From: Flavobacteriales bacterium
GTDB taxonomy: Bacteria > Bacteroidota > Bacteroidia > Flavobacteriales_D > Parvicellaceae
Length of the DNA stretch: 44,579 nt
Assembly: GCA_024635865.1 (NCBI GenBank)
Contig: JAGXIB010000230.1
Span: 1 to 44,579 of the forward strand
Direction of reading: 5' to 3'
Of this stretch, positions 18,289 to 43,993 are shown in pieces. The notes under the pieces were generated by a model that worked only from the letters and a program-made list of their open reading frames with translations, was not told the origin of the DNA and did not search any database. How positions within the stretch are numbered: position 1 is the stretch's first letter; each line of letters opens with the position of its first letter. The translations under genes were made by a program, and so were the position numbers.

Positions 18289-20724
18289 ATGAAAAAAATA
18301 ATATTAGCTAGTTTAATTTCGATATTTAGTCTGTCTTTTTATAGTCAAACTTTGATTTCGGACGCAGATACTCTTTGTGATTGCTCAAACACCACAAGTA
18401 GCTTTAATGATGGAAGTGTTGTAAATTTCCAAGATGCATCAGGTGGTACTGATTATCTTCCTGGATCGAATGATACAATTACTTTTTGTCCAGATGCAAC
18501 TACTTCAAAATTATTTGCAACATTTGCTATTGATCAAGGATTTTCTTGGAATGTTGATGCTTCAGATACTTTGTATGTCTATGATGGTCCTAACGCTTCT
18601 AGTCCACTTTTAGGAGCTTATAATTCTACTACTGATCCTAATGGAATGTTTTTGCAGTCTTCTTGGAACAATCCTAGTGGGTGTTTAACATTTGTATTTA
18701 TTAGTAATGGTGCAGATGAAGGAACAGGTTGGGATGCAAATATTTCATGTGGAAATCCACCTCAGCCTTTTGAAGTTCATATGGAAGCTTATATAACAGG
18801 AACATCTAACGGAGGGGATGACATTGTTAATGACTTAAATCCGATAGATACAGGATATGTTGATGTTTGCTTAGGAGACTCAATACAATTGGTGGCGTTG
18901 CCATTATTTCCAAACGACCCAAGTAATACAAATAATGGAGGGTATGATCAAATTAATAACTATGTTGCTACTTGGGAGTTTTCAGACGGAACAGTTTTAA
19001 CTGGTGATACAATTTTATTTGTTCCTCCATATAGAAGTGGTTTTTTAGTAAAGTTAAGAATAGATGATGGCTTTCCTCAAGTAGAAACTATTTCAGCGAT
19101 TATTAGGGTTTCAACAGTTCCTAGTTTTGCAACTTGTAGAGCTTTGAGTGATACTATTTGTGCAGGTGAAGCAACTCAATTATTTGGAGGAATAGTTGCA
19201 GGGGATACGGTTGGAGTTGAAGGACAACCAGGGAGTATTGATATTGATGGGTCTTTTGCTACACTAACCTACTTACCTGATGGGTCAGGACAGAATTATA
19301 CTACTGATATTGCCATCTCAGGTTTTCCGACTTCAACTACGATACAAAATGCTTCTGATATCAGTAGGATTTGTTTAAGTATGGAACATTCTTTTTTAGG
19401 TGATTTAGAAATGACTTTAACTTGTCCTAACGGTCAATCAGTTGTTATCTTCAATGCTTATTCAGGAACCAGCGCAGGGAGTTTAGCTGTAGGTGGATTT
19501 GGCGGTGGAGGGACATATATCGGTGGAGCGGATGATTCAGGAAATGGAACTGTCGGAGTATGCGAAGAATATTGTTTTTCTGAGCGACCTGGTTCTCTTC
19601 CATCATGGGCAAATGGTTATAATACGATGGTTGCATCAGGACCTAGTATAGGGACCATGATTGAACCAGGGATTTATAATCCTGAAGAAGCTTTCTTTCC
19701 TGCATTACAGGGGTGTCCAGTGAATGGAAATTGGACAATTACCGTAAGAGATAACCAAGGAATTGATGATGGTTATATTTGTGAATGGGGTATTTTTCTT
19801 AGTGGAACTTTAGATCCAAATACAGAAAACTACACCCCTAGTATTGTGAATGAATTTTGGTCTCCCGACCCAACTATCATAACAGGAGATAATGACACTG
19901 CTATTGTGGTATTGCCTCCTCTAGGTACAACTGGTTACACCTTTAATGTTGAAGATAACTTTGGGTGTACTTATGATACAACTATTAATGTTACTGCTAT
20001 TCAGGGACCTTCAGTAGAAGGACCATTAGAAGGCTGTGTTGGAGCTAATGCCGGGGTTCAGTTTGCTAATACCTATGCTCCAGAGGGAGGTTCTTGGGAG
20101 TATCCATCAGATCTAACTCTTAAATTTCCTAGTAGTTTTATTAACCAAGGGTTCACTTCTAATACCCCTGGAACATATACAGTTTCTTTTTTAGATAATC
20201 AATGTAGTGATACAACAACTGCTCAAATTACTTTTCTTCCGATTCCTACAGCAGAGATAGTATTAGAATCCGATACGATTTGTAGAGGAGACTCATTATT
20301 GTTAAAATTAGTGACTTCAGACCCAAACAACATAGTTTGGAATAATAATCCATTATTCAATACTCAAGCTATTTCAATATCTGAAGCTGGAATTTATACC
20401 GCAGAAGTAACTAATCAATGTGGAACAGCTACAGATGAGTTTGAATTGTTTATTCAAGATTGTGTTATTCCAAATGTGATTACTCCAAATGGAGATGGAC
20501 AGAATGACTACTTTTATACAAATATAGCTGAGAATTATACAGATACTCATGTAATTATTTACAATAGATGGGGAAGAAAAGTCTATGAGAATAAAAATTA
20601 CGATAACTCTTGGGATGGAGTAAATAATGGAGGTGGAAAGTTAGCTGCTGGAACCTATTATTATGTTCTTACTTATGATGGAGGGAGTATTGATGAAAAA
20701 GGATTTATTACTTTAATGAAATAA
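18289..20724 (+). CDS. Surface protein with CUB-like and P-domains and type B T9SS sorting domain
   Basis: The 811-residue protein has a signal peptide (MKKIILASLISIFSLSFYSQ) and then a CUB-like domain (DTITFCPDATTSKLFATFAI through TFVFISNGADEGTGWDANIS, about residues 60-155). A PKD-like stretch follows (YVATWEFSDGTVLTGDTI), then a proprotein-convertase P-like domain (SRICLSMEHSFLGDLEMTLT through GNWTITVRDNQGIDDGYICE), Ig-like repeats, and from about residue 725 the CHU_C/type B T9SS domain (VITPNGDGQNDYF, IYNRWGRKVYE, WDGVNNGG). Type B signals direct proteins through T9SS and usually need a PorP/SprF-like partner. There is no protease domain, so an adhesive or binding role on the cell surface is likely. 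It follows a small exported gene by 6 bases and ends before a strong terminator. Confidence 0.9.
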   Translation: MKKIILASLISIFSLSFYSQTLISDADTLCDCSNTTSSFNDGSVVNFQDASGGTDYLPGSNDTITFCPDATTSKLFATFAIDQGFSWNVDASDTLYVYDGPNASSPLLGAYNSTTDPNGMFLQSSWNNPSGCLTFVFISNGADEGTGWDANISCGNPPQPFEVHMEAYITGTSNGGDDIVNDLNPIDTGYVDVCLGDSIQLVALPLFPNDPSNTNNGGYDQINNYVATWEFSDGTVLTGDTILFVPPYRSGFLVKLRIDDGFPQVETISAIIRVSTVPSFATCRALSDTICAGEATQLFGGIVAGDTVGVEGQPGSIDIDGSFATLTYLPDGSGQNYTTDIAISGFPTSTTIQNASDISRICLSMEHSFLGDLEMTLTCPNGQSVVIFNAYSGTSAGSLAVGGFGGGGTYIGGADDSGNGTVGVCEEYCFSERPGSLPSWANGYNTMVASGPSIGTMIEPGIYNPEEAFFPALQGCPVNGNWTITVRDNQGIDDGYICEWGIFLSGTLDPNTENYTPSIVNEFWSPDPTIITGDNDTAIVVLPPLGTTGYTFNVEDNFGCTYDTTINVTAIQGPSVEGPLEGCVGANAGVQFANTYAPEGGSWEYPSDLTLKFPSSFINQGFTSNTPGTYTVSFLDNQCSDTTTAQITFLPIPTAEIVLESDTICRGDSLLLKLVTSDPNNIVWNNNPLFNTQAISISEAGIYTAEVTNQCGTATDEFELFIQDCVIPNVITPNGDGQNDYFYTNIAENYTDTHVIIYNRWGRKVYENKNYDNSWDGVNNGGGKLAAGTYYYVLTYDGGSIDEKGFITLMK

Positions 20725-25272: not shown

Positions 25273-28200
25273 ATGAAGAATTATTTAGAAATCATACAAA
25301 GAAAATTATTTTCATTAGGTTTACTAGTGGTGCTACTTGTGCTTTCTAATTTTGTGAAAGCGAATCACTTAGTTGGAGGAGAATTAACTTGGGCTTGTTT
25401 AGGATCAGGACAGTATATCTTTCAGGTAAAAGTTTATCAAGATTGTAATGAATTTCAGCCGCCACCAACCTCTATGCAAATTAAAGTTTGGAACAACTCC
25501 AACCTTTCAATAATCCCTTTATCTAATGTAGGAAATAATGATTTCTCATTCTCATGTTCTGAAGTTATAGGTGGTAATCCTCAATATGATTGCAGTGCAC
25601 CAGGAGTTGGAAGTATAACAGAGTATATTTTACAAAGCGCCCCATTAACACTTACTGGTGTGCCACCTGCGAGTGGATGGCATTTCACTTGGGACGCTTA
25701 CTTTAGAACAGGTGTTGCTCAAAATTTAGATAATGCTCAAAATGCAGGGTTAACGCTTCATGCATCTATGTATAGTTATAATGGGCAAGATGCTTCTACC
25801 TGTTTTGATAGCTCTCCAGAGTTCATTAAACCTCCTTTGAATGTAGTTTGTTCATCAAAAAATATAAACTATAATATCGGGGCTTTTGATAGTAATTTAG
25901 ATTCTATTAGTTATCAATTTGCTAACCCTTTAAATAACGATTTTGGCTCTAGTTTTTCACCGCCAACTTCCCCTTCCGTAGTTCAATGGGCTGCAGGATT
26001 TAATACAACAAGTCAGCTTCCAAGTCAGACTCAAAATAGCTTAAATTCTGGTGCAGTTTTAAATGCTAATAATGGTGCATTAACTTTTAACTCTGTTACG
26101 TTAGGTAATTATAGCACAGTCATAAAGGTAGAATCGTGGCGATGTGGAAAATTAATTGCAGTAGTTTACAGAGAAATGCTCATTAATATAGTTAACTGTG
26201 CAGGGAGTAATGATTCTCCTAGTATAAGTTTAACTGGAATTACTAATAATTCCGTAACTGTAAATGCTGGAGATATTGTGTCGTTTGATATTGTAGCTCA
26301 AGACAACGATTTATTAGCTGACGGAACAAATCAAAGCGTTACGTTAAATATATATGGAGGTGAAGTAGGAGATGGCTTAACTAATCCAAACTTAGGGTGC
26401 CCATATACTCCATGTGCAACTACAAATACAGGTTTGCCTCAAACAAACGTGCAGTTAGTTAACACGACTTTTAGTTGGGAAACAAGTTGTAGTTTGTTTA
26501 CCGAAGATTGTTATCGTTCAAATAAAATATTCTACTTTACTATCGTAGCTCAAGATGACTACTGTTCTGTTCCTGGACAAAATGAAGTAACTATTGCTGT
26601 AAAAGTCATAAACAAACCTCCAGTAACTCCTCCAAAACTTCATTGCGCAACTATTGCTTTAAATGGAGATGTTATCTTGAATTGGGAACCGACAATAGAT
26701 GCTGATAATTCCTTTCAAGAGTATCGCGTTTATTCATCCAACAATACGAATTATAATTTAGTGGGTACTACTAACAATATAAATGCAACAACTTTTACGC
26801 ATGTTGGAGCTGATGCAAACGTTGCTCCAGTAAACTACATCGTAAAATCTGTTTATGGTTGTAATAATTCAGAGAGTGTTGTTTTGGATACTTTAACGAC
26901 GCTATTTTTAGTGGTTAATAACCCAAGTGACGGGACAGCTGTATTACAATGGAATCAAATGAGTAACCCTCCTTTAAATTCTGCTTCTGACTGGTATTAT
27001 ATTTATCAAGAATATCCAACAGGAACCTGGACGTTATTAGATTCAACTCAGTATGGGAGTGAATATTATAGAGATACTATTTCTGTCTGTGATGCCTTTT
27101 TAAATTATAAAATAGAACTAAAAGATCAGTTAGGATGTTCTTCATTTTCCAATGTAGCTGGAGATCAATTTCAAGACTTATTGCCTCCAAATTTACCTGA
27201 TTTAAATTGGGTGACTGTTGACACGGCATCAGGAAATGCTGCTTTAAACTGGTTCCCGAGCTCTTCTGGTGATGCTAGTGCTTACATCATTTTTCAATTT
27301 TTTGGAGGAGGATGGATTGCGGTAGATACTGTCCAGGGATACAACTCTACAGATTATACTTACCTTAATTCTAATGCAGATGAATACAGTGAAACATATG
27401 CTTTAGCAGTATATGATAGTTGTTTTAGTCCAACTCCTAATACTAGCCCATTAGGAGTTGGACAAGAAACGATGTTCCTAACCTCAAAGTTAGAAGTGTG
27501 CGATAAGTCCGTGGAGCTTAAGTGGAACTCATATGTAAACTGGAGTGATGGAGTAGATCGATATGAAATAGAAGCTTCTGTTGATGGAGGTGTTTATACT
27601 TTAGTAGGTTCAACTTCTGATACGACATTTAACTTTACTTCAGGGGTTCCTAATGCCAATTATTGCTTTCTAATAAAAGCTGTAGCAAACGATCAATTTA
27701 AGACTTCATTGTCTAGTCTTTCATGTTTGTTTTTACATCAACCGCCTACTCCTAAGTTTAATTATCTTCAAACAGTAACAGTATTGGATGATAATGAGAT
27801 CGAAGTACGTATTCATCAAGATTTAGCAGCTCAAATATCAAATTTCAGGTTAGAAAGGTCGCTAGAAAACATAAATACTAATTTTGAAGAAGTGCTAACA
27901 ACAACTTCAGCTAGTAACCCTGTGATTTTTAACGACGTTTCTGTAGAAACAAATGAAATGTCTTACTTCTATAGAGTCCTAGTAGAAGATAGTTGTGGAA
28001 GGCCTACTTTAACTTCTAATATCGGGAAGTCAATTTTACTTGATGTTTCTGGAAGCTCTACAAAATTAACAAATTTCTTACAATGGACTCCTTATCAGAA
28101 ATGGAATGGAAATTTACTTCGTTATGAAATATATCGTTCGGTCAATGGCGTATTTAGCTTAACACCAATAGCTGTATTGCCTCCAAGTAAATTATTTTAT

Positions 28201-28614
28201 AATGACGATATTAGTGGAATTGTTAATACAGATGTTGAAGGAGATTTTTGTTATTTTGTAAGAGCTGTAGAAAGTTTAAATACTTTTGGCATCAATGAAA
28301 TTAGTGAATCTAATGTTGGCTGTGCTCAGCAGAATCCAATAATTTATATTCCCAATGCTTTAGTGATTGGAGGCTATAACAATACATGGAGACCAGTAAT
28401 AAGTTTAATTAATTATGAAACGTATCAATTGAGGATTTTTAATCGATTTAGTGAAATTATTTTTGAATCTAATGATCCAAATGAAGCTTGGGATGGCGGT
28501 CATAAAAAAAATGGAAAAATTGTTCAACAAGGATTGTATATCTATCAAATTACTTTTAGAAAGTCAAATGGTGACTTTGAAGAAGTAAGAGGTCATATCA
28601 CTTTGGTTAAGTAA
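25273..28614 (+). CDS. Large fibronectin-like surface protein with a degenerate type B (gliding-motility) C-terminal domain
   Basis: The 1113-residue protein has a long signal peptide (about residues 1-31, ending FVKA). It opens with the domain NHLVGGELTWACLGSGQYIF, then VKVYQDCNEF, which recurs at the N-terminus of large Bacteroidota adhesins. After a cadherin/Ig-like part, four or more fibronectin type III-like modules follow (for example ALNGDVILNWEPTIDADN, VELKWNSYVNWSDGVDRYEI, NFLQWTPYQKWNGNLLRYEI). The last 90 or so residues align with the CHU_C type B domain: YIPNALVIGGYNNTWRP, LRIFNRFSEIIFES, AWDGGHKKNGKIVQQGLYIY. The usual PNGDG signature is missing. Expected location is the cell surface through T9SS. 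Its stop overlaps the next start by one base (TAATG). Confidence 0.85.
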   Translation: MKNYLEIIQRKLFSLGLLVVLLVLSNFVKANHLVGGELTWACLGSGQYIFQVKVYQDCNEFQPPPTSMQIKVWNNSNLSIIPLSNVGNNDFSFSCSEVIGGNPQYDCSAPGVGSITEYILQSAPLTLTGVPPASGWHFTWDAYFRTGVAQNLDNAQNAGLTLHASMYSYNGQDASTCFDSSPEFIKPPLNVVCSSKNINYNIGAFDSNLDSISYQFANPLNNDFGSSFSPPTSPSVVQWAAGFNTTSQLPSQTQNSLNSGAVLNANNGALTFNSVTLGNYSTVIKVESWRCGKLIAVVYREMLINIVNCAGSNDSPSISLTGITNNSVTVNAGDIVSFDIVAQDNDLLADGTNQSVTLNIYGGEVGDGLTNPNLGCPYTPCATTNTGLPQTNVQLVNTTFSWETSCSLFTEDCYRSNKIFYFTIVAQDDYCSVPGQNEVTIAVKVINKPPVTPPKLHCATIALNGDVILNWEPTIDADNSFQEYRVYSSNNTNYNLVGTTNNINATTFTHVGADANVAPVNYIVKSVYGCNNSESVVLDTLTTLFLVVNNPSDGTAVLQWNQMSNPPLNSASDWYYIYQEYPTGTWTLLDSTQYGSEYYRDTISVCDAFLNYKIELKDQLGCSSFSNVAGDQFQDLLPPNLPDLNWVTVDTASGNAALNWFPSSSGDASAYIIFQFFGGGWIAVDTVQGYNSTDYTYLNSNADEYSETYALAVYDSCFSPTPNTSPLGVGQETMFLTSKLEVCDKSVELKWNSYVNWSDGVDRYEIEASVDGGVYTLVGSTSDTTFNFTSGVPNANYCFLIKAVANDQFKTSLSSLSCLFLHQPPTPKFNYLQTVTVLDDNEIEVRIHQDLAAQISNFRLERSLENINTNFEEVLTTTSASNPVIFNDVSVETNEMSYFYRVLVEDSCGRPTLTSNIGKSILLDVSGSSTKLTNFLQWTPYQKWNGNLLRYEIYRSVNGVFSLTPIAVLPPSKLFYNDDISGIVNTDVEGDFCYFVRAVESLNTFGINEISESNVGCAQQNPIIYIPNALVIGGYNNTWRPVISLINYETYQLRIFNRFSEIIFESNDPNEAWDGGHKKNGKIVQQGLYIYQITFRKSNGDFEEVRGHITLVK

Positions 28615-34184: not shown

Positions 34185-36806
34185 TTAAAACGGATATCCA
34201 ATACCTAAATTAAATTGCCAAGGGAAAAACTCCTTTCTCAACCTGCCATCAGGATAACCAGCTGTTTCCCCCCATTTGCCAGCTGTAATCCATCGTTGAT
34301 TGGTTGGTAAAGAGGGGTTTTTAATCGGTACTGCAAAATCAAATCGAATAATAAAGAAGTCCAAATCCATTCTGACTCCAAGCCCTGCTCCTAAACCAAT
34401 TTCAGAGATGAAATTACTGGCTTTAAACTGTCCTCCAGTTCTTAATGAGTCTTCATTGATTAGCCAAATGTTCCCAGCATCTATAAATGCTGCTCCATTT
34501 ATCCAGCTAGAAATAGGAAAACGGATTTCTAAGTTTCCTTCTAGTTGAATGTCCCCAATTTTATCAAAACTATTAGTTGAATCATAATAAGAACCTGGTC
34601 CCATCGTTCTTGCTTTCCAAGCTCTCAAACCATTTGATCCACCTGAGAAAAAGCTTTCTTCAAATGGGAGAGCTTCTTTAAGGTTTTTTAAAGGAATACC
34701 AATACCTCCTGCTACTCTAGAAACGATTTTAATTCTTCTTGTAAGGCTATTGTAGTATCTGAAATCTCCAGATATTTTTGCGAATTGTGCAAAACGAATC
34801 CCTAAAAACTCATAAGCTCCTTGGCTATTTAATGGTTGATCTGTAAGGTTATAAAAAGCCCTTAAAGAGTTTCCAGCTACTTCTAATTCTGATTGGAAAT
34901 AAAAAACATTTTTTCTTTTCTTTTTTCTGTCTTGACCATTGTAGGTAAAGCTCAATCTAGTACTAGCAATAATATGATCTTGGTAACTAGCAGCCAATAG
35001 GCGATCGTTGAGTAAGTCTATACTTTCTTGAAATTTAGCTGACTTATCAATTTTAATCGCGCTAATATTAAAAGGAGTAAATCGGTAGGTAATCGGCGAT
35101 TTTTCGTGCCAGACGTAACCAAAAGAAAGGTTCTCTTTGTTGCGGGTAAAATCAGGTCTTCTCTGATAATTAATGACTCCAGAGAACTCTGTTTTAGGAT
35201 TGTACGCCTTAGGAAATAATTTTCCTAAGAAAACAAATCGAGGAATGGTTAACCTTAGGTTAGGTCCAAATTCGACAGTATTAAAACTAGGAAGGTTTTG
35301 TATAGAGGATTGTAAGCTTTCATCTACTTGGTTATCAACCAAAGACCGCTGCATCTCTAAACCACCGCTTAAACTGACTTCTAATTTTTCAGCCCCTTTA
35401 AAAATGTTTTTATGAGAATAAGCAAGTTTACCTTCTATTCCAAATAGTCCATTCCCAAAAGTTTTCCCATCTGTTGCTACCGTAAAGCTTTGCATTTTAT
35501 TTGGCTCTAGCTTTATTTTTGCAACTAAGTCATTGCAACCATTATTTAGAGTGTCAAACTCAATAGAAGAGGTTTTAAAGGTTCCTAATGATGAAAAAGT
35601 CTTGTAAGTAGTGATAGCATCGTCTTTACTGTATAAGTCTCCTTCCTGGAATCGTATAGAGTTATACAATAACTTGGGTTTAAATAGAAGTTCTTTACGG
35701 GAGATTAAAGAAATATTATTGCTAAATGTAAGAGTATCTTTAAAGTTGCTTTTAGAAGCTCTAGCAGAGTAGTCAGGGTATATTTCTACTTTCATGATGT
35801 TATATTGTGCGTGATTTTTCTCTAAAATAGTATCATAAACAGGGTCTTTAAATTTATAGTTCTGTATGCGAAGCTCAATATTGACCTGATTAGACTTAAG
35901 ATTACTGTCTATTTTAAAGTGAATAAATTCTTTGTTAAAAAATTTATATCCATTGTTTAATAAAAATGAAGTGATTCGTTCTCTTTCTTTGTTTAAATTT
36001 TCAGAATCATAAATTTGATTAGTATCAATAATAGATTTTGGCCGAATTGAATCTAAATAATGGGATAATAAAGTGTCTTTTACAATATAATGAATGCCTT
36101 TTATTCGATAAGGCTTCCCTAGTTTAATCAAGTAGTTAATTTCACCTCTATTTAATTTGTTTTTATGTTTTATTTTTACTTCCCCTTTCTCATTAGTAAT
36201 TGTGTCTGGAAATAAATTAATTTTATAATCTACTTTATTATTAAAATAGCCTCTATTAATTAGATAAATATTGAGCTGCTTAGCAGAATTAATAGTTTTT
36301 ATAGTGTCAATGATAACAGGTTTTTCTCCAGAAGAGCGAACTCTTTCTCCAAAAGTAGGTTTAGGGTCTTTGTATGGTTTAGGATAAAACTCTATTGGGT
36401 CATAATTAGTATTGTTTTCTTTTGCTTTTTTATTCTTTTTTTCAATTCGTTCTTTTTTCTTCGCATTTTTTTTCTCTATTTTTTCGTTTTTCTTTTCGGC
36501 TTTTCTTTCTTGTACAATGCTTCGTTTTTCAATTCGTTTTTCACTAGATAAGTTATAGAGCCTTAAGTAAAATCGTATACCCAGCACTAATTTTTTGTTG
36601 GGTTTTTGTTTCAAGATATTCTGCATTTCATCTTCGTCTACATTCTCATGTTTACTAAATAGAGCGTTACTGTCTTGTTTTATTTTAAAGTTGTTATTAT
36701 CCAATAAGTATTGACCTTCTGGCACGTGTTTAGTAATACTACATGAATGAACAATGAGTAGTATTGGAATAAGTATTCCTAGATATATTACGGCTCTTTT
36801 AATCAA
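34185..36806 (-). CDS. tamL: TamL-like BamA/TamA-family outer-membrane lipoprotein
   Basis: TamL is the lipidated TamA homologue of Bacteroidota and is thought to help insert outer-membrane proteins, with TamB. The 873-residue protein starts at a TTG codon (no ATG or GTG is available upstream in frame). It has a lipoprotein signal with lipobox IVHSC (Cys22). POTRA-like domains occupy the first half (KQLNIYLINRGYFNNKVDYK, RERITSFLLNNGYKFFNKEF). The C-terminal Omp85 barrel shows FGNGLFGIEGKLAYSHKNIF, the lid-lock type SFFSGGSNGLRAWKARTMGPG, and a final strand WQFNLGIGYPF. A highly charged Lys/Glu/Asn stretch (about residues 90-132) inserts between lipobox region and POTRA. Its start is close to the divergent methyltransferase gene; tamB is not in the window. 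Confidence 0.88.
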   Translation of the reverse strand: MIKRAVIYLGILIPILLIVHSCSITKHVPEGQYLLDNNNFKIKQDSNALFSKHENVDEDEMQNILKQKPNKKLVLGIRFYLRLYNLSSEKRIEKRSIVQERKAEKKNEKIEKKNAKKKERIEKKNKKAKENNTNYDPIEFYPKPYKDPKPTFGERVRSSGEKPVIIDTIKTINSAKQLNIYLINRGYFNNKVDYKINLFPDTITNEKGEVKIKHKNKLNRGEINYLIKLGKPYRIKGIHYIVKDTLLSHYLDSIRPKSIIDTNQIYDSENLNKERERITSFLLNNGYKFFNKEFIHFKIDSNLKSNQVNIELRIQNYKFKDPVYDTILEKNHAQYNIMKVEIYPDYSARASKSNFKDTLTFSNNISLISRKELLFKPKLLYNSIRFQEGDLYSKDDAITTYKTFSSLGTFKTSSIEFDTLNNGCNDLVAKIKLEPNKMQSFTVATDGKTFGNGLFGIEGKLAYSHKNIFKGAEKLEVSLSGGLEMQRSLVDNQVDESLQSSIQNLPSFNTVEFGPNLRLTIPRFVFLGKLFPKAYNPKTEFSGVINYQRRPDFTRNKENLSFGYVWHEKSPITYRFTPFNISAIKIDKSAKFQESIDLLNDRLLAASYQDHIIASTRLSFTYNGQDRKKKRKNVFYFQSELEVAGNSLRAFYNLTDQPLNSQGAYEFLGIRFAQFAKISGDFRYYNSLTRRIKIVSRVAGGIGIPLKNLKEALPFEESFFSGGSNGLRAWKARTMGPGSYYDSTNSFDKIGDIQLEGNLEIRFPISSWINGAAFIDAGNIWLINEDSLRTGGQFKASNFISEIGLGAGLGVRMDLDFFIIRFDFAVPIKNPSLPTNQRWITAGKWGETAGYPDGRLRKEFFPWQFNLGIGYPF

Positions 36807-36820
36807 AACAATTAAATGGT

Positions 36821-36828
36821 TAACTTTG
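36821..36828 (+). promoter_or_regulatory. Candidate -7 promoter box (TAACTTTG) for the RNA methyltransferase
   Basis: TAACTTTG is an exact TAnnTTTG match with TTTT 20 bases upstream (36797-36800) as a possible -33 element. Transcription starting near 36835 would leave the nominal ATG at 36816 untranscribed and supports the GTG start at 36849. The whole control region overlaps the start of tamL on the other strand. Confidence 0.6.
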
Positions 36829-36848
36829 CAGTTGTAAAAATAAGAAAG

Positions 36849-37571
36849 GTGCTAACAAAATCAGATATAAAACGAATTAATTCACTTAAACGAAAGTCAA
36901 AAAGGAATGAATATGGCTTATTCGTTGTTGAAGGAGTGAAAATTGTTCAAGAATTAATGGATTCTGATTTTAAAATTCAGCAAATCTTCGCGCTTCAATC
37001 AGAGTTAGATCAATTTAAAAATGCTATTTCAGTTTCTGAAAAAGACTTAGGACGAATTACTCATTTATCTAACCCTAATAAAGTTTTGGCATTGGTAGAA
37101 ATACCAAAGATGAACAAACTAGATAGACCCAATGAAACTATTTTAGTAATAGATGGCGTAAATGATCCTGGTAATTTAGGGACGATCATTCGAACTGCTG
37201 ACTGGTTCGGAATTAAACAAATTATTTGTTCTGAGAATAGCGTTGATTGTTACAACTCTAAAGTTATCATGTCGACAATGGGATCTATTTTTAGAATTAA
37301 TATTTCTTATCAACATTTGCCAAGCTATTTAGCTAAAGCAGATCTGCCAATTTATGGCGCTTTATTAGAAGGTGAATCTATTTATCAGACAGAATTCTCC
37401 TCTCCAAGTATCATTTTAATGGGAAGTGAGTCACATGGTATTTCAGAAGAACTTATCCCTTTTATTCATCATCCAGTAACCATTCCTGGTGCTGGAAATA
37501 CAGAGTCTTTAAATTTAGGAGTTTCTACCGCTATTTTTTGTTCGGAGTACTATCGACAGAAATCGAAATAG
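36849..37571 (+). CDS. SpoU/TrmH-family 2'-O-ribose RNA methyltransferase
   Basis: SpoU-class SPOUT enzymes methylate the 2'-oxygen of tRNA or rRNA nucleotides with S-adenosylmethionine. I choose the GTG at 36849 (240 residues, starting VLTKSDIKRINSLKRKS) because family members typically begin at this point, and a promoter box (36821-36828) overlaps the upstream ATG at 36816. An N-terminal substrate-binding domain (EYGLFVVEGVKIVQELM) precedes the knotted domain with motif 1 VIDGVNDPGNLGTIIRTADWFG, split here around IIRT, motif 2 IILMGSESHGISEELI and motif 3 IPGAGNTESLNLGVSTAI. All conserved residues are present. The exact substrate (for example 23S rRNA G2251 or a tRNA) cannot be told from sequence alone. 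Confidence 0.9.
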   Translation: MLTKSDIKRINSLKRKSKRNEYGLFVVEGVKIVQELMDSDFKIQQIFALQSELDQFKNAISVSEKDLGRITHLSNPNKVLALVEIPKMNKLDRPNETILVIDGVNDPGNLGTIIRTADWFGIKQIICSENSVDCYNSKVIMSTMGSIFRINISYQHLPSYLAKADLPIYGALLEGESIYQTEFSSPSIILMGSESHGISEELIPFIHHPVTIPGAGNTESLNLGVSTAIFCSEYYRQKSK

Positions 37572-37593
37572 GTTTTAGAAACAAATAGCTCTT

Positions 37594-37791
37594 TTACTTC
37601 ACTATTACCTTCTTAATTCCAAAGCCATTAGTTGTAACTGATTTTACAAAAGAGGTCTCAGCTTTCAACTTAGAGAAGTCAATGTTATTATTCGAAGTCT
37701 CTGGTATTAGTTTACCATCAATAGTCAAAATTTGAATGTTCTTTATTTTTAAATTATATAGAGAATAGGTTGCCAATTGTGTTTCTTTCAT
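37594..37791 (-). pseudogene. Orphan type A T9SS C-terminal sorting-domain fragment
   Basis: The 65-codon frame contains IQILTIDGKLIPETSNNNID, then FSKLKAETSFVK, and ends NGFGIKKVIVK. This aligns by eye with the second half of type A T9SS signals (VxIYDLxGKLV...IDLSxLxxGxYFVKVxTxNGxxxKKIxVK). The first half (YPNP motif) is absent. Upstream the frame meets a TAA stop 8 codons before the ATG, with no cargo domain or signal peptide. It therefore looks like the surviving 3' end of a lost secreted protein gene, lying between the methyltransferase gene and the promoter of the HYR adhesin. Translation is doubtful. Confidence 0.65.
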
Positions 37792-37868
37792 CAGAAAGAA
37801 ATAATGGAGACTTTAAGTAATTGATAATCTTTATTATAAGTCATCCTCGTTTTTAAAAGTAAAGATTT

Positions 37869-37898
37869 ATTGAAATATCGTTTTTTATTTTAAATTTG
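37869..37898 (+). promoter_or_regulatory. Candidate promoter for the PKD/HYR adhesin operon
   Basis: ATTG at 37869-37872, 18 bases, then TAAATTTG at 37891-37898 fits TTTG-N17-23-TAnnTTTG with one mismatch. The leader would be about 47 bases to the ATG at 37952. It closely resembles the promoter proposed for the tRNA pair. Confidence 0.6.
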
Positions 37899-37951
37899 CT
37901 TCCAAAAATTATTTTTAATTGTTTAAATAACTTCTTTCTAAATAATATTAG

Positions 37952-40432
37952 ATGAAATATTCTCTATTCTTGGTTTTATTTTTTTCTGCAATAAAACTAA
38001 ATGCGCAATGCGTTTCTAACTTCAGCTTAAACCCATCTACAGGTTGTTCTGTCCCTTATTCCGTTTTTTTTACTGATTTGTCAACCTTACCAGATACATG
38101 GCTATGGAATTTTGGGGATGGAAGTACTTCTACTTCTAAAAACCCTATACATAACTATACTGTTGCTGGAGGATTTAAAGTAACTTTGAGAATATCTGAT
38201 ACGATGACTGGTTGTACAAGTGTACATGTCGACAGTGTAAAAATTGGAGTCCCTACAGCTGACTTTTCAAGTTCTGGAACGTTTGGATGTGCACCTTTTA
38301 GTACAAGTTTTACAAATACATCATTTAATTCGGGGTATGGAAATCTTAGCAGTTGGGCTTGGGATTTTGGTGATGGTTCGACTTCAAATAGTCAAAACCC
38401 TAGTCACACATATAATAGTCCTGGAACATATAACGTGTCATTAACTGTAACAAATTCACTAGGCTGTACTATCACCAAAAATTCTACTAATTACATCCAA
38501 GTTATTGGCCCTGATGTTAATTTTGGGTCTTCTGATACAATCGCAGATTGCATACCACACACTGTTATTTATAAAGATAGTACTAGTTTTGGAGCCCCAA
38601 TTACCTCTTGGACGTGGAATTTTGGAGATGGAAATTCGAGTTCACTTCAAAACCCGTCTCATGTTTACACGAATTATGGTAACTACAGTGTAAGTCTTAA
38701 GGTAAATGACCTAGACGGTTGTAGTCGAACATTAACTTTTACAGATTATGTTAAAATTAATGACAATAGTAACCCTACAATAAATTGCCCTGGAAATCAA
38801 AATGTTAATCTTGATGGAAGCTGTCAGTACAGTTTATTAGATTATACCAGCTTAGCAACTTTTAGTGATAATTGTTCTGTTACGGTAACTCAAAGCCCTG
38901 TGGCAGGTACTTTAATAGCTTCCAGTCAAACGGTTACGCTAACTGCAACAGATGGAGTAGGAAATTCGACTAACTGTAGCTTTGATGTAGTTCCAACAGA
39001 TAATACTCCTCCAACGATAAATTGCCCTGGAAATCAAAACGTTAATTTTGATGGAAGCTGTCAGTACAGTTTATTAGATTATACAAGTTTAGGAACTTTT
39101 AGTGATAACTGTTCTGTTACGGTAACTCAAAGTCCTTTAGCAGGAACTATAATTGCTTCCAGTCAAACGATTACACTTACTGCAACAGATGGAACTGGTA
39201 ATTCGGCTAACTGTAGCTTTGATGTAGTTCCAACAGATAATATCTTCCCAACGATAAGTTGTCCAGGAAATCAAAATGTTAACCTTGACGGAAACTGTCA
39301 ATTTACCTTGCCGGATTATACCGCTATGGCTACAGCTAATGACAATTGTACTTTTGCAGTGAGCCAATCTCCAGTAATTGGGAGTATTATAACAACAAAT
39401 CAAACTATAACTTTAACAGTAGCAGATGGAGCTGGAAACGTTTCAACCTGTAGTTTTGCTGTTATTGTTAGTGACAATATTAATCCAACTATTACTTGTC
39501 CTGGGGATGTTACTCAAAATAATGATTTGAGTAGCTGTGGGGCAATTGTTAATTATTCATCTCCTGTTTTTAGTGATAATTGTTCAGGTGCATCTATGAC
39601 TCAGAATACTGGTTTAGCAAGTGGAGCTTTATTTCCGATAGGAACCACTGTTAATACCTATGAAGTGGTAGATGGAGCAGGCAATACTGCAACATGTTCG
39701 TCTACTGTAATAGTTATAGATAATGAGTTGCCTACAATTATTTGTCCTCCTGCAATTCAATCTTGTGATTCAATTATAACTTTTTCTGATCCAGTTGTAG
39801 CCGATAATTGTTCAGGAGAGTCACTTGTTCTAACTTCTGGAATTCCTTCAAATAATTTATTCCCTTTGGGTTTAACAACTAATACTTATACGGTGACAGA
39901 TGCTGCTGGAAATACTAATAGTTGCTTTTTTGATATAACTAGGTACGTTCAGCCCTATGTAGATGCAGGGGCTAATGTTCAAATTAATGCAGGAAACTCA
40001 ATTGCATTAAGTCCAACAAGTACGAATGCAACAACTTTTGATTGGTCTCCTTCAGTAGGCTTAAATGATCCAACTATTGAGAGTCCAGAGGCTTCACCAC
40101 AAGAAAATACTATCTACACCTTGACTGTAACTTCTGACGATGGATGCCAAGCAGCTGATGATGTTGAGATTACTGTCGACGTTGAAGTTGAAGTAAATAA
40201 CTTTATGAGTCCAAATGGAGATGGAAAGAATGATACTTGGATTATTAAAGGGAATTATCTTTTAACCGATTGTACGATTCAAATCTTTGACAGCTGGGGT
40301 AATAAGTTGATGGAAAGTATAGGATACCAAAACGATTGGGATGCCGATGGTTTGCCAGAAGGAAATTATTTTTACGTCATTACATGTAAAAGTGATCAAC
40401 CTATAACTGGGAGTGTTACCTTAATTAGATAA
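37952..40432 (+). CDS. PKD/HYR repeat adhesin with type B T9SS sorting domain
   Basis: The 826-residue protein begins with a signal peptide (MKYSLFLVLFFSAIKLNAQ) and has three PKD domains (WLWNFGDGSTSTSKNPIHNY, WAWDFGDGSTSNSQNPSHTY, WTWNFGDGNSSSLQNPSHVY). Five HYR-type modules follow; the first three are tandem 79-residue units, each beginning with a CPGNQNVN block. An Ig-like segment (VDAGANVQINAGNSIAL) comes next, then the type B domain with FMSPNGDGKNDTWIIKG, IQIFDSWGNKLME, WDADGLPEGNYFYVI. It has no enzymatic domain and is expected to be displayed on the surface as an adhesin, as SprB is for gliding. The PorP/SprF-OmpA gene starts 26 bases later, so cargo and secretion partner are cotranscribed. 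Confidence 0.92.
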   Translation: MKYSLFLVLFFSAIKLNAQCVSNFSLNPSTGCSVPYSVFFTDLSTLPDTWLWNFGDGSTSTSKNPIHNYTVAGGFKVTLRISDTMTGCTSVHVDSVKIGVPTADFSSSGTFGCAPFSTSFTNTSFNSGYGNLSSWAWDFGDGSTSNSQNPSHTYNSPGTYNVSLTVTNSLGCTITKNSTNYIQVIGPDVNFGSSDTIADCIPHTVIYKDSTSFGAPITSWTWNFGDGNSSSLQNPSHVYTNYGNYSVSLKVNDLDGCSRTLTFTDYVKINDNSNPTINCPGNQNVNLDGSCQYSLLDYTSLATFSDNCSVTVTQSPVAGTLIASSQTVTLTATDGVGNSTNCSFDVVPTDNTPPTINCPGNQNVNFDGSCQYSLLDYTSLGTFSDNCSVTVTQSPLAGTIIASSQTITLTATDGTGNSANCSFDVVPTDNIFPTISCPGNQNVNLDGNCQFTLPDYTAMATANDNCTFAVSQSPVIGSIITTNQTITLTVADGAGNVSTCSFAVIVSDNINPTITCPGDVTQNNDLSSCGAIVNYSSPVFSDNCSGASMTQNTGLASGALFPIGTTVNTYEVVDGAGNTATCSSTVIVIDNELPTIICPPAIQSCDSIITFSDPVVADNCSGESLVLTSGIPSNNLFPLGLTTNTYTVTDAAGNTNSCFFDITRYVQPYVDAGANVQINAGNSIALSPTSTNATTFDWSPSVGLNDPTIESPEASPQENTIYTLTVTSDDGCQAADDVEITVDVEVEVNNFMSPNGDGKNDTWIIKGNYLLTDCTIQIFDSWGNKLMESIGYQNDWDADGLPEGNYFYVITCKSDQPITGSVTLIR
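38784..39494 (+). repeat. Three tandem 237-bp repeats in the HYR region
   Basis: Units start at 38784, 39021 and 39258, an exact 237-base (79-codon) period. Units 1 and 2 are nearly identical over long stretches, for example AAATTGCCCTGGAAATCAAA and GATGGAAGCTGTCAGTACAG in both, with only scattered changes. Unit 3 is clearly related but diverged. The pattern fits recent duplication by unequal crossing-over within the gene and allows length variation without a frame change. Confidence 0.9.
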
Positions 40433-40458
40433 ACTTTTAATTCCTCTATAATAGAATT

Positions 40459-41901
40459 ATGAAAATAATTAAATCAATCTTTACCCTTTGTTCGCTAGTT
40501 TTATTATTAGATGGAAGGGCTCAGCAGATTAGCTTAAATACTTTATATAATCAAAATTTTCTTTTAATAAACCCTGCGGCTGCAGGAAAATCTGGTTGTT
40601 TCTCTGCTTATTTAAATCATAGAAATCAGTGGGTTGGAATTAATAATAGCCCATTAAGAAATCGGCTTACTTTAGATGGTAGAGTAAAAAATAATCATGG
40701 AATAGGGTTAGACCTAAGCATGCTTCAGGCTGGTTTGTTAAGTGATTTTAGTGCTAAAGCTACTTATGCACATCATATACAACTGTCTAAAAAGACTTTT
40801 TTAAGTGCTGGATTTTCGGCTGGAATTACTCAACAAAATTTTAACCTTTCAGATGTCATCGCTTCTGATTATTCGGATAATACCTTAGCTCAAGGGAATC
40901 AATCTGATATGGGATTTAATTCTGATGCAGGAGTGCTTTTTTATACCGATAGAATTAGGATTGGGGTCTCGATTCCGCAAGTTTACTCAACTGGAATTGG
41001 AATTCAAATGTCTGGAGTTGAAGAAGAATATAAATTAGTCAATCATATGATATTCGCTGCGGGAATAGATGTTGTTAGTTCTGACTCATGGAAAGTAACC
41101 CCTTCATTAGTATATAGGAATGCATCATTCAAAGCAAATCAGATGGATGTTTCAATGCGTGTGGGTTGGAATAATTTAGTTGGAATCTCTGTACTATATC
41201 GAAGTAGTTATGGTTTTGCAGGAGTTTTTGATCTTAATATTGCAGACAGGTTTAATTTAGCCTATAGTTATGGTTTTGGGACTTCAAGTAGTATTACAGG
41301 AATATCAAAAGGAGCACATGAATTAATGTTGGGAATTAAATTATGTAAGAAGGAAAAACCAATAGAAGATATTTTAACTGAAAACGCATTAGTAACTAAA
41401 GAGTTAGTCCCTGTTGTTAAGGATTCTTTATTGACGAAACAACATGTTATTGAAGACATCATAACTTCTGATAAAGTAATTATTCAGGATACTTTAATTG
41501 CTGAAATATCAAATGTTGAACCATGGGAAATTGATGTTGACTCTTTGAATGCAGCTTTTTTAAAGAAAGACAAGGTAATATTATTTAAACTGAACTCATC
41601 AAGAGATGTTATTTCAGGAAATCAAAAACAAGTTGTTGATGAGGTTGTGGTTTTATTACAAAACCATCTCGATTTAAATATTACTATTGAAGGGTTTACT
41701 TGTGATATAGGAACAACAGAGCAAAATATGGTTGTGTCTTCTGAACGAGCAGAAGCTATTAAAGATTTCTTGATAAAAAAAGGAGTAAGCCCAGGGAGGA
41801 TACAAGTTGCACCAAAAGGAGAGTCAAATCCACTTCGTTCAAATTCAAATGAAGAGAATCGATCTCAAAATAGACGTGTTATTATTGTGTTTAGAAGATG
41901 A
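40459..41901 (+). CDS. PorP/SprF-family T9SS membrane protein fused to an OmpA peptidoglycan-binding domain
   Basis: The 480-residue product has a signal peptide (MKIIKSIFTLCSLVLLLDGRA). A PorP/SprF barrel of about 275 residues follows, with the family opening QQISLNTLYNQNFLLINPAAAG, YLNHRNQWVGINNSPLRNRL, and strands such as GIGLDLSMLQAGLLSDFSAK. After a linker rich in Ile, Thr and Asp (about 300-365), a C-terminal OmpA-like domain spans about residues 370-480 (VILFKLNSSRDVISG, ITIEGFTCDIGTTEQNMVVS, SERAEAIKDFLIKKGV, final NRSQNRRVIIVFRR). SprF-like proteins are needed for export of type B cargo such as SprB. The gene lies 26 bases after such a cargo gene, making them a likely pair. The OmpA part would tie the channel to the cell wall. 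Confidence 0.9.
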   Translation: MKIIKSIFTLCSLVLLLDGRAQQISLNTLYNQNFLLINPAAAGKSGCFSAYLNHRNQWVGINNSPLRNRLTLDGRVKNNHGIGLDLSMLQAGLLSDFSAKATYAHHIQLSKKTFLSAGFSAGITQQNFNLSDVIASDYSDNTLAQGNQSDMGFNSDAGVLFYTDRIRIGVSIPQVYSTGIGIQMSGVEEEYKLVNHMIFAAGIDVVSSDSWKVTPSLVYRNASFKANQMDVSMRVGWNNLVGISVLYRSSYGFAGVFDLNIADRFNLAYSYGFGTSSSITGISKGAHELMLGIKLCKKEKPIEDILTENALVTKELVPVVKDSLLTKQHVIEDIITSDKVIIQDTLIAEISNVEPWEIDVDSLNAAFLKKDKVILFKLNSSRDVISGNQKQVVDEVVVLLQNHLDLNITIEGFTCDIGTTEQNMVVSSERAEAIKDFLIKKGVSPGRIQVAPKGESNPLRSNSNEENRSQNRRVIIVFRR

Positions 41902-41944
41902 GAATAAATGAAGTATTGTCTTTTTAGTGTAAATAAAACTAAAT

Positions 41945-43993
41945 TTACTTAGATTGATCTAATTTTCTTACCATTGTTAAAATAGTAGCTAAAGCGACTG
42001 TCTCTCCGGTTTCGTCATAAACATCAACTAAGAACTTTACGATTCCTTTTGCTATATCGTCTTCTGATTTTTTCTCCTGATCAATTTTCTCTTTTACAGT
42101 AAAACGAACTCCGATAGTTGTTCCTGGATAAACAGGCTTAACAAATCGACACTCATCAATACCATAATTTAATAATACTGGTCCTTTTTTAGGGTCAACA
42201 AACATTCCTGCAGCTTTAGAAAGAATGTAATACCCATGTGCTACTTTATTCTCGAAAATAGTACCTTCTAGTGAAGTTATGTCTACGTGTGCATAAAAGT
42301 TATCTCCACTCACTTGAGCAAAATTATTTATATCAGACTCTAGTACTGTATGTTTATGAGTAAAGACAGTATCTCCAATAGTTAGTTCTTCAAAGTGTTG
42401 TCTAAATACGTGAGGGTTAGCTTCTGGTTGGTTTGCTCCAACTTGAAACTGTTTTGTAATGGCTGTAATGGTTTGTGGGTGCCCTTGAATTGAAGTTCGT
42501 TGTAAGTAATGTAATATACCTCTTTTCCCTCCCATTTCTTCACCTCCACCAGCTCTTCCTGGTCCTCCATGTGTTAATAATGGCATTGGAGATCCGTGCC
42601 CTGTACTTTCTTTAGCACAAGATTCATTCAGTACTAAAATACGACCGTTGGTGTGAGCAGCTTCAACAACAAACTCGGTAGCGATATTATCATCAGCTGT
42701 AATGATCGAAGTAACTAATGATCCTTTCCCCATTTTGACTAATTCAACAGCTTCGTCTAAATTTTTGTAAGGAATTAAAGTAGAAACAGGTCCGAAAGCT
42801 TCAATATTGTGTACGTCTGTTTTTTCGAATGGTTTATTATTTCTAAATAGGATAGGAGAGAAGAATGCTCCTTTTTCTTTGTCACCGCCTATAATGTCAA
42901 AGTTGTCTAAATCTCCATAAACAACCTCTTGAGATTGCATCAATAACTCTACATTTTCTTTTACTCTTTCTACTTGTAGACGAGATGCTAAAGCTCCCAT
43001 TCTTACTCCTTCAATAGAAGGGTCTCCTATTGTGTTTTTAGCTAACCTTGAGTTTAAAGCAGTTTGCACGTCATCAATTAAATTCTCAGGAACTAGTATA
43101 CGTCTAATTGCAGTACATTTTTGACCGGCTTTTACGGTCATTTCTTTTTGAACTTCTTTTATGAAAATATCAAATTCAGGAGTTCCTGGTTTGGCATCTT
43201 CTCCAAGAACAGAAGCATTTAAAGAATCTGCCTCTAGGTTGAAAGGTACAGAGTTTTGTATAATATTATCTTGATTCTTTAATTTTCTACCTGTTAATGC
43301 TGACCCAGTAAAAGTAACAATGTCTTGATAGTTTACATGGTCAATGATGCCATGTCCTTTTCCAGTCACTAATTGTAAGGAACCTTCTGGTAGAATTTTA
43401 GCATCAATAATTTCCCTAACCATTAACTCAGTCAAATAACTAGTAAACTCTGAAGGTTTAACGACAGCAGGAACACCTGCCATTAAGTTAACGGCAATTT
43501 TTTCTAACATTCCCCAAATAGGAAAATTAAAAGCATTAATATGAACAGCAATTCCTTGTTTTGGAACCATGATATGATGTCCAATAAAACTTCCTCCTTT
43601 AGAAAGGGGAGCGGCATCACCGTCAACATAATAGGGTAAATCTGGGAATTGTTTTCTTAAAGAAGCATTGGCAAAAAGGTTTCCAATTCCTCCTTCAATA
43701 TCTATCCATGAATCAATCTTAGTTGCTCCAGTAGCAGCACTTAAAGCATAGAATTTTTTTTTCTGACCATTTAAGTGTAAAGCCAATGCTTTTAACATTA
43801 AACCTCTTTCTTGGAAAGTCATTTTACGTAATGCCTTTCCTCCAACTTTACGTCCATAATCTAAAATAGATTCATAATCTAAACCTGCACTAGAAACACT
43901 TCCAACAAAATCTCCATTAATCGAGTTAAAAACTTCTAATTCAGTTCCTTCTCCATTCATCCATTTTCCTTGTACATAGTTTTGTATGATCAT
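41945..43993 (-). CDS. paaZ: Bifunctional oxepin-CoA hydrolase / semialdehyde dehydrogenase PaaZ
   Basis: PaaZ opens the ring of oxepin-CoA and oxidises the resulting semialdehyde during aerobic phenylacetate degradation. The 682-residue protein has the N-terminal aldehyde dehydrogenase domain (INAFNFPIWG, TFTGSALTGRKLK, catalytic Glu254 in FNLEADSLN, catalytic Cys293 in VKAGQKCTAIRR). Its C-terminal MaoC hydratase domain (from about residue 530) has the catalytic pair Asp564 and His569 in VSGDNFYAHVD. Both active sites are complete and the length matches known PaaZ (about 680). It is cytoplasmic. The other paa genes (paaABCDE, paaG, paaH, paaJ, paaK) are not in the window, so it may be a detached member of the pathway. 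A TATATTTG box sits 28 bases upstream. Confidence 0.93.
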   Translation of the reverse strand: MIIQNYVQGKWMNGEGTELEVFNSINGDFVGSVSSAGLDYESILDYGRKVGGKALRKMTFQERGLMLKALALHLNGQKKKFYALSAATGATKIDSWIDIEGGIGNLFANASLRKQFPDLPYYVDGDAAPLSKGGSFIGHHIMVPKQGIAVHINAFNFPIWGMLEKIAVNLMAGVPAVVKPSEFTSYLTELMVREIIDAKILPEGSLQLVTGKGHGIIDHVNYQDIVTFTGSALTGRKLKNQDNIIQNSVPFNLEADSLNASVLGEDAKPGTPEFDIFIKEVQKEMTVKAGQKCTAIRRILVPENLIDDVQTALNSRLAKNTIGDPSIEGVRMGALASRLQVERVKENVELLMQSQEVVYGDLDNFDIIGGDKEKGAFFSPILFRNNKPFEKTDVHNIEAFGPVSTLIPYKNLDEAVELVKMGKGSLVTSIITADDNIATEFVVEAAHTNGRILVLNESCAKESTGHGSPMPLLTHGGPGRAGGGEEMGGKRGILHYLQRTSIQGHPQTITAITKQFQVGANQPEANPHVFRQHFEELTIGDTVFTHKHTVLESDINNFAQVSGDNFYAHVDITSLEGTIFENKVAHGYYILSKAAGMFVDPKKGPVLLNYGIDECRFVKPVYPGTTIGVRFTVKEKIDQEKKSEDDIAKGIVKFLVDVYDETGETVALATILTMVRKLDQSK

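Follow-up and report, generated by a model that had tools for sequence, protein, structure and literature searches.

A predicted type B adhesin shuttle with a built-in OmpA domain in a Flavobacteriales genome

A stretch of DNA of 44,579 nucleotides from a Flavobacteriales bacterium (GenBank assembly GCA_024635865.1, contig JAGXIB010000230.1, positions 1 to 44,579 of the forward strand; hereafter "the window" in its entirety) encodes a PKD/HYR adhesin that bears a type B sorting signal of the type IX secretion system (T9SS) and, immediately downstream, a single protein in which a PorP/SprF barrel is joined to an OmpA domain. We consider it probable that this fusion is the adhesin's cognate PorP/SprF-type shuttle, carrying its own periplasmic anchor. 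The PorP/SprF type B shuttle is a known kind of protein; new is a shuttle with the predicted OmpA anchor built in; carrying the adhesin and tying it down are jobs split between proteins in the gliding bacteria studied to date. We favor this reading because (i) such fusions adjoin type B cargo (34/34), lack a PorE-like neighbor (0/31) and co-diverge with the cargo signal; (ii) the modeled structure aligns both to the T9SS chains 8gl6_F and 6h3i_F and to wall-binding domains of the Pal/OmpA type; (iii) in published systems, PorP/SprF-like proteins both bind their type B cargo and anchor it (PMC9143113, PMC12618676); (iv) P. gingivalis PorP binds PorE, whose OmpA domain has been crystallized with a peptidoglycan fragment (PMC9143113, PMC7192894); and (v) fusions of PorP to a SPOR-like domain, close by in the tree, likewise follow type B cargo (7/7).

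Whether a type B adhesin, once exported, is held in place or moves is a live question in research on gliding and the T9SS. Type B substrates exit through SprA, and a PorP-like protein acts after the pore as shuttle and anchor (PMC12635249, PMC9143113, PMC12618676); each substrate stays bound to its PorP/SprF-like carrier, usually the product of the next gene (PMC12635249, PMC12618676, PMC9143113). A published proposal holds that static type B proteins are retained by PorP-PorE, and moving ones, such as SprB, by the shuttle alone. The tying of static cargo to the wall has so far been proposed from one characterized complex and from gene order; a natural shuttle-OmpA fusion, with SPOR fusions close to it in the tree, offers independent support for that proposal.

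In the mechanism that we envisage, the adhesin would be exported by Sec and then pass through the general T9SS pore (SprA), and the barrel would collect the adhesin by its type B signal at the pore, stay bound to that signal, and keep the adhesin on the surface. Other shuttles would dock on a separate, OmpA-bearing PorE or on the moving GldK track; here, linker and OmpA domain would extend the barrel, making shuttle and tether a single chain through a flexible linker. We infer that the OmpA domain would hold the shuttle to the wall; the adhesin would probably be displayed at a fixed place, not moved.

The gene pair and the modeled fusion

The pair and its parts are as follows.

37952..40432, + strand: type B T9SS cargo, a PKD/HYR adhesin of 826 aa (Pfam PKD_4, HYR and CHU_C; NCBIfam TIGR04131)
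40190..40432, + strand: type B C-terminal sorting domain of the cargo, residues 747-826 (CHU_C E 1.1e-19; TIGR04131 E 1.8e-14)
40459..41901, + strand: PorP/SprF-OmpA fusion of 480 aa, a putative shuttle that would bring its own anchor in the periplasm (PF11751 and PF00691 in one open frame; 33 other distinct full-length fusions)
40519..41334, + strand: PorP/SprF barrel, residues 21-292, predicted FadL/PorV fold (PF11751 E 4.4e-54; AlphaFold2; VIA-align)
41347..41568, + strand: mostly disordered acidic linker, residues 297-370 (predicted local distance difference test score, pLDDT, below 50 over 321-354)
41569..41898, + strand: OmpA-like periplasmic domain, residues 371-480 (PF00691 E 7.5e-19, match over 383-472; VIA-align to Pal 4g4w)

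A preliminary description of this DNA had reported a PKD/HYR adhesin with a type B signal, then 26 bases, then a PorP/SprF-OmpA fusion, and profile matches confirmed this arrangement, with the barrel and the OmpA domain in one open frame. The adhesin carries PKD_4 repeats in three stretches (E 1.1e-49) and HYR repeats in four (E 6.7e-35), and its sorting domain scores above the cut-offs (CHU_C, 70.8 vs. 27 bits; TIGR04131, 53.7 vs. 35 bits). From its stop to the start of the fusion gene, on the same strand, there are 26 bp; the barrel encoded there is likewise above the curated cut-offs (PF11751, 184.3 vs. 22.3 bits; TIGR03519, 186.2 vs. 90.55 bits). The window's own genome has 21 PorP/SprF matches, about 50 type B signals and 18 OmpA matches in total, and the OmpA part is absent from every other PorP/SprF match of that genome that could be read whole. 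An assembly artefact was ruled out by the 33 other distinct full-length fusions, which come from other genomes.

The AlphaFold2 model of the fusion has a mean pLDDT of 82.9, with the barrel and the OmpA domain mostly above 90 and the linker, which ranges from 57 to 87 aa across fusions, disordered. Among T9SS entries, VIA-align matched the model to 8gl6_F (Z 24.8; root-mean-square deviation, rmsd, 2.8 over 257) and 6h3i_F (Z 24.2), which we take to be PorV chains; FadL aligned with Z about 25. A sequence search of the PDB with the PorP profile returned no solved relative, and the fold assignment is therefore taken from the predicted model. The OmpA domain of the model aligned to Pal 4g4w with Z 16.4 (rmsd 1.6 over 108), and to Pal/OmpA domains with Z about 16.

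The preliminary description had further suggested that the fusion may be an outlet and had called the pair self-contained. Neither term is supported, since the exit for type B substrates is SprA, with the PorP-like protein acting after that pore. In its strongest form, that the fusion is the adhesin's own export channel, independent of the general T9SS pore, the idea is scarcely credible: that each cargo is strictly matched with a single barrel would suit it, but type B export needs SprA (PMC12635249), PorP-like proteins are shuttles (PMC12618676), and the predicted barrel has the size and fold of FadL/PorV, with nothing translocon-like about it.

Cargo, PorE and the tails of other shuttles

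The fusions were collected by their shuttle sequence, not by their cargo, and yielded 34 distinct proteins including that of the window. A type B gene lies directly upstream, on the same strand, in all 34, with a gap of -1 to 43 bp. Distances among cargo signals were correlated with those among barrels, with a Mantel r of 0.93 in the 34 fusions and of 0.73 over 181 pairs; in 167 of the 181, the class of the shuttle could be predicted from the nearest cargo signal. The survey of adjacency and co-evolution that the preliminary description had proposed thus came out in its favor, no fusion being found far from cargo, and these data uphold its view of the fusion as a dedicated partner of the adhesin.

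Adjacency as a trait special to the fusion was ruled out. In the discovery set, a type B gene was also found upstream of 12/15 unfused shuttles with Cys tails, 17/18 with PRxF tails and 49/51 with other tails, as well as of 7/7 SPOR fusions; in a fresh set of unfused shuttles the corresponding figures were 13/27 (Cys), 44/47 (PRxF) and 6/11 (other). Because most unfused PorP genes also adjoin cargo, adjacency alone is weak evidence. This frequency, together with the typical OmpA fold, is what might be said for a general outer-membrane tether, in which the OmpA domain would serve envelope integrity as in Pal/OmpA and the adhesin neighborhood would be incidental. We regard such a role as very unlikely: the barrel is of the PorP/SprF type, not an OmpA barrel; every one of the fusions follows type B cargo and co-diverges with its signal; and the genome encodes many other OmpA-domain proteins.

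A PorE-like neighbor was found beside none of the 31 OmpA fusions with enough flanking sequence. The occurrence of PRxF tails next to PorE was noticed first and then tested on 80 regions (85 PorP genes) of a phylum-wide sample, in which a PorE-like neighbor accompanied 40/47 PRxF tails, 0/27 Cys tails and 3/11 other tails. With both sets pooled, the counts were 58/65 for PRxF tails, 0/42 for Cys tails, 0/31 for OmpA fusions and 0/7 for SPOR fusions. Among the PorP/SprF C-termini compared (L031-L290), the PRxF tails have the fuller form (S/T/N)PR[YF]F. Tails thus sort by partner, PRxF with PorE and Cys without it, and the fusion accordingly looks like the anchor of PorE built into the shuttle. 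The preliminary description had named separate proteins such as PorE as the usual source of wall anchoring, and the fusion indeed occupies the place that a separate PorE has at other loci (0/31 vs. 58/65 PRxF-tailed shuttles). The sorting also provides a sequence-based way to predict the fate of a type B adhesin. The PRxF shuttles form nearly one clade in a tree of 104 barrels, leaving only one to three independent contrasts; for this reason a PRxF tail is a sound predictor of a PorE neighbor but weak proof of docking, and we dropped the tail code as independent proof of docking, the PRxF link being strong but largely inherited.

The fusion can be compared with two described arrangements. SprF, the shuttle of the gliding adhesin SprB in Flavobacterium johnsoniae, is likewise a PorP/SprF barrel encoded right downstream of a large type B adhesin and is similarly predicted to collect and anchor it; however, the C-terminal tail of SprF is short and contains a Cys-x-Cys motif, through which a disulfide joins it to the GldK track (PMC12635249), whereas the fusion has one post-barrel Cys, apparently paired within the barrel, then a linker and an OmpA domain. 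Without a Cys-x-Cys tail, the window's gene was ruled out as an SprF-like, GldK-linked mobile shuttle. The PorP-PorE systems (P. gingivalis PorP, PorE and PG1035; F. johnsoniae Fjoh_3952/3951/3950) share with it a shuttle and an OmpA domain by which a type B protein would be fastened to the wall, but they consist of two proteins, PorE comprising TPR, WD40, CRD and OmpA domains, whereas the fusion is one chain that lacks TPR, WD40 and CRD and has no PorE adjoining it.

Several points weigh against a shuttle anchored in this way: (i) adjacency to type B cargo is common for unfused PorP genes as well; (ii) the two genes are linked, and their common descent would account for part of the co-divergence and could produce it even if their products never touch; (iii) the window's own genome encodes several PorE-like proteins (with PD40, CarboxypepD_reg and OmpA domains), making an unlinked PorE partner possible; and (iv) the window's form has a Cys where the diaminopimelate-binding Asp is critical in A. 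baumannii OmpA, as considered in the following section.

Elsewhere in the window's genome, a Cys-tailed PorP gene (locus L038, G000:C23, 643-1626) is followed by a gene for a 634-aa GldK/GldJ-like protein, which suggests a second locus of the track type. Within the window, two further type B cargo genes (18289-20724 and 25273-28614) have no adjoining PorP gene and would need an unlinked shuttle.

The diaminopimelate site and the cysteines of the fusion

The residues concerned are the following.

40597..40599, + strand: Cys47, just ahead of the first barrel strand (33/34 fusions)
41344..41346, + strand: Cys296, right behind the last barrel strand (which ends at 295 in the model), predicted disulfide partner of Cys47
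41701..41703, + strand: Cys415, in place of the diaminopimelate-binding Asp (PorE Asp576; Acinetobacter baumannii OmpA D271)
41746..41748, + strand: Arg430, second diaminopimelate-binding residue, retained (34/34 fusions)

The OmpA domain resembles the peptidoglycan-binding domains of OmpA/Pal in its fold and in the Arg and, mostly, the Asn of the diaminopimelate site (PorE equivalents D576, N584, R591), Asn423 being retained in 31 of the 34 fusions. It departs from them at the Asp position, which is occupied by Cys in the window's fusion and nine others (10/34) and by Asp in the remaining 24; of the nearest non-fused OmpA domains, 28 were scored, and every one has Asp. Of the Asp/Asn/Arg trio, therefore, the window's protein has Asn and Arg, with Cys415 replacing Asp. 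In A. baumannii OmpA, this Asp (variant D271A) and the Arg are critical for diaminopimelate binding (PMC6572160). Judged from these residues, wall binding is likely for the Asp-form members of the family and uncertain for the Cys form of the window, because there the binding Asp is a Cys. The earlier term "wall-anchored" is therefore doubtful for the window's fusion. In the barrel tree the Asp-form members branch from within the Cys form; by parsimony, Cys may be ancestral to the fusion and Asp regained.

Across 215 PorPs, 50 of the 51 that have Cys47 also have Cys296, 164 lack both, and a single one has just one of the two (co-occurrence p 2e-48, uncorrected for shared descent). Their co-occurrence and the order of the strands point to a structural disulfide between them, which would leave Cys415 unpaired in the chain. 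In the fusion of locus L156, both are lost and the OmpA Cys is kept.

These patterns bear on another possibility, that the Cys-form OmpA domain has been converted from a wall-binding domain into a disulfide site for a periplasmic partner, most plausibly the GldK Cys, or for a second copy of itself, so that the adhesin would ride on the track or sit in a cross-linked patch. Cys415 is invariant across the ten Cys-form fusions, some of them as little as about 30% identical to that of the window, and replaces an Asp kept in all 28 scored non-fused domains nearest to it; within the chain it lacks a conserved partner, Cys47 and Cys296 appearing to pair with each other and L156 having lost both yet retained the OmpA Cys; and the GldK of the same genome has a Cys in an SGCF motif that resembles the published RGCF motif, to whose Cys SprF, through its C-terminal tail, and PorG are disulfide-bonded (PMC12635249). 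Set against this, Arg430 and Asn423 are retained as though the pocket were still in use, the nesting of the Asp form within the Cys form indicates that the Cys is not essential to the fusion family, and the known partners of GldK engage it through a tail that is short and unstructured rather than through a folded domain. On balance, we think this explanation unlikely. A related idea, that the invariant unpaired Cys turns a wall-binding pocket into a disulfide handle, for example to the GldK track, and so would make the shuttle switchable between wall and track, we put forward only as a tentative suggestion.

Distribution and the pair as a unit

Returning to the anchored shuttle, we assessed its distribution by running a profile against 399 genomes from the order. 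Full-length fusions, counted from the matches listed, were present in at least about 77 of the 399, mostly in one family; in these large searches four candidates per genome were scored, so that all counts are lower bounds. Crocinitomicaceae is our assignment for this family, since two fusion proteins from it have the same sequence as the proteins of Crocinitomix catalasitica (L088; strain ATCC 23190 has the pair) and of an uncultured Crocinitomix (L085). The remaining fusions come from the genus of the window, from two more families within the order, from two Flavobacteriales metagenome-assembled genomes, and from Marinoscillum, which belongs to another family. Two phylum-wide draws, the first with a three-sequence profile and the second a broader search, found no fusion among the other approximately 394 genomes. 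The impression of rarity left by the three-sequence profile was misleading, given the order-wide count: the fusion is common in Crocinitomicaceae and rare elsewhere.

In the tree of 104 barrels, the OmpA fusions form one clade, implying a single change, with a strict support of 66% that rises to 97% when two unfused sisters are included. Adjoining this clade is a second family of PorP/SprF fusions (L052-L058; e.g., L053:7128-8540), in which the barrel is followed by a coiled coil and a SPOR-like domain. L053 and L056 pass Pfam's cut-off for SPOR, whose match in the other members is weak or missing. Like the OmpA fusions, these proteins join a shuttle to a domain of a peptidoglycan-binding type and are encoded downstream of type B cargo; unlike them, they have SPOR in place of OmpA and no post-barrel Cys at the position of C296. 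Neither kind of fusion is described in the papers searched, preprints and most subscription papers lying outside that search.

The genomic setting of the pair was compared with that of a genome of the same genus, G002. The window (34185-43993) and a locus of that genome (L292, G002:C19) share a conserved TamL-SpoU methylase-PaaZ context; in G002, SpoU and PaaZ are separated by about 70 bp and the adhesin-shuttle pair is absent, whereas the window has the pair at that site. Because the same-genus genome keeps the flanking genes with nothing between them, the pair appears to come and go as a unit, with gain and loss not polarized by this comparison. G002 has a pair of its own elsewhere, the barrel of which is 36% identical to that of the window, vs. 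58% for Crocinitomix, a member of another family. No recombinase or mobility gene was present among the genes identified beside the pair, and a search for flanking direct repeats gave nothing beyond short chance matches. The earlier suggestion that the cassette is transferable is borne out to the extent of the presence and absence of the exact pair at one site.

Two minor observations concern the surroundings of such pairs. In the Crocinitomix locus L085 and the G046 locus L086, but not in the window, the adhesin is preceded, at a distance of about 100 bp, by a gene for a hybrid two-component regulator of about 945 aa (TPR, histidine kinase, receiver and AraC helix-turn-helix domains); open reading frames of similar size occur in L087 and L088. 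Finally, between the SpoU gene and the adhesin the window has a 65-aa frame on the minus strand (37594-37791), absent from the G002 site, that looks like a type A T9SS sorting domain in decay (TIGR04183; E 0.04, which does not reach the cut-off).

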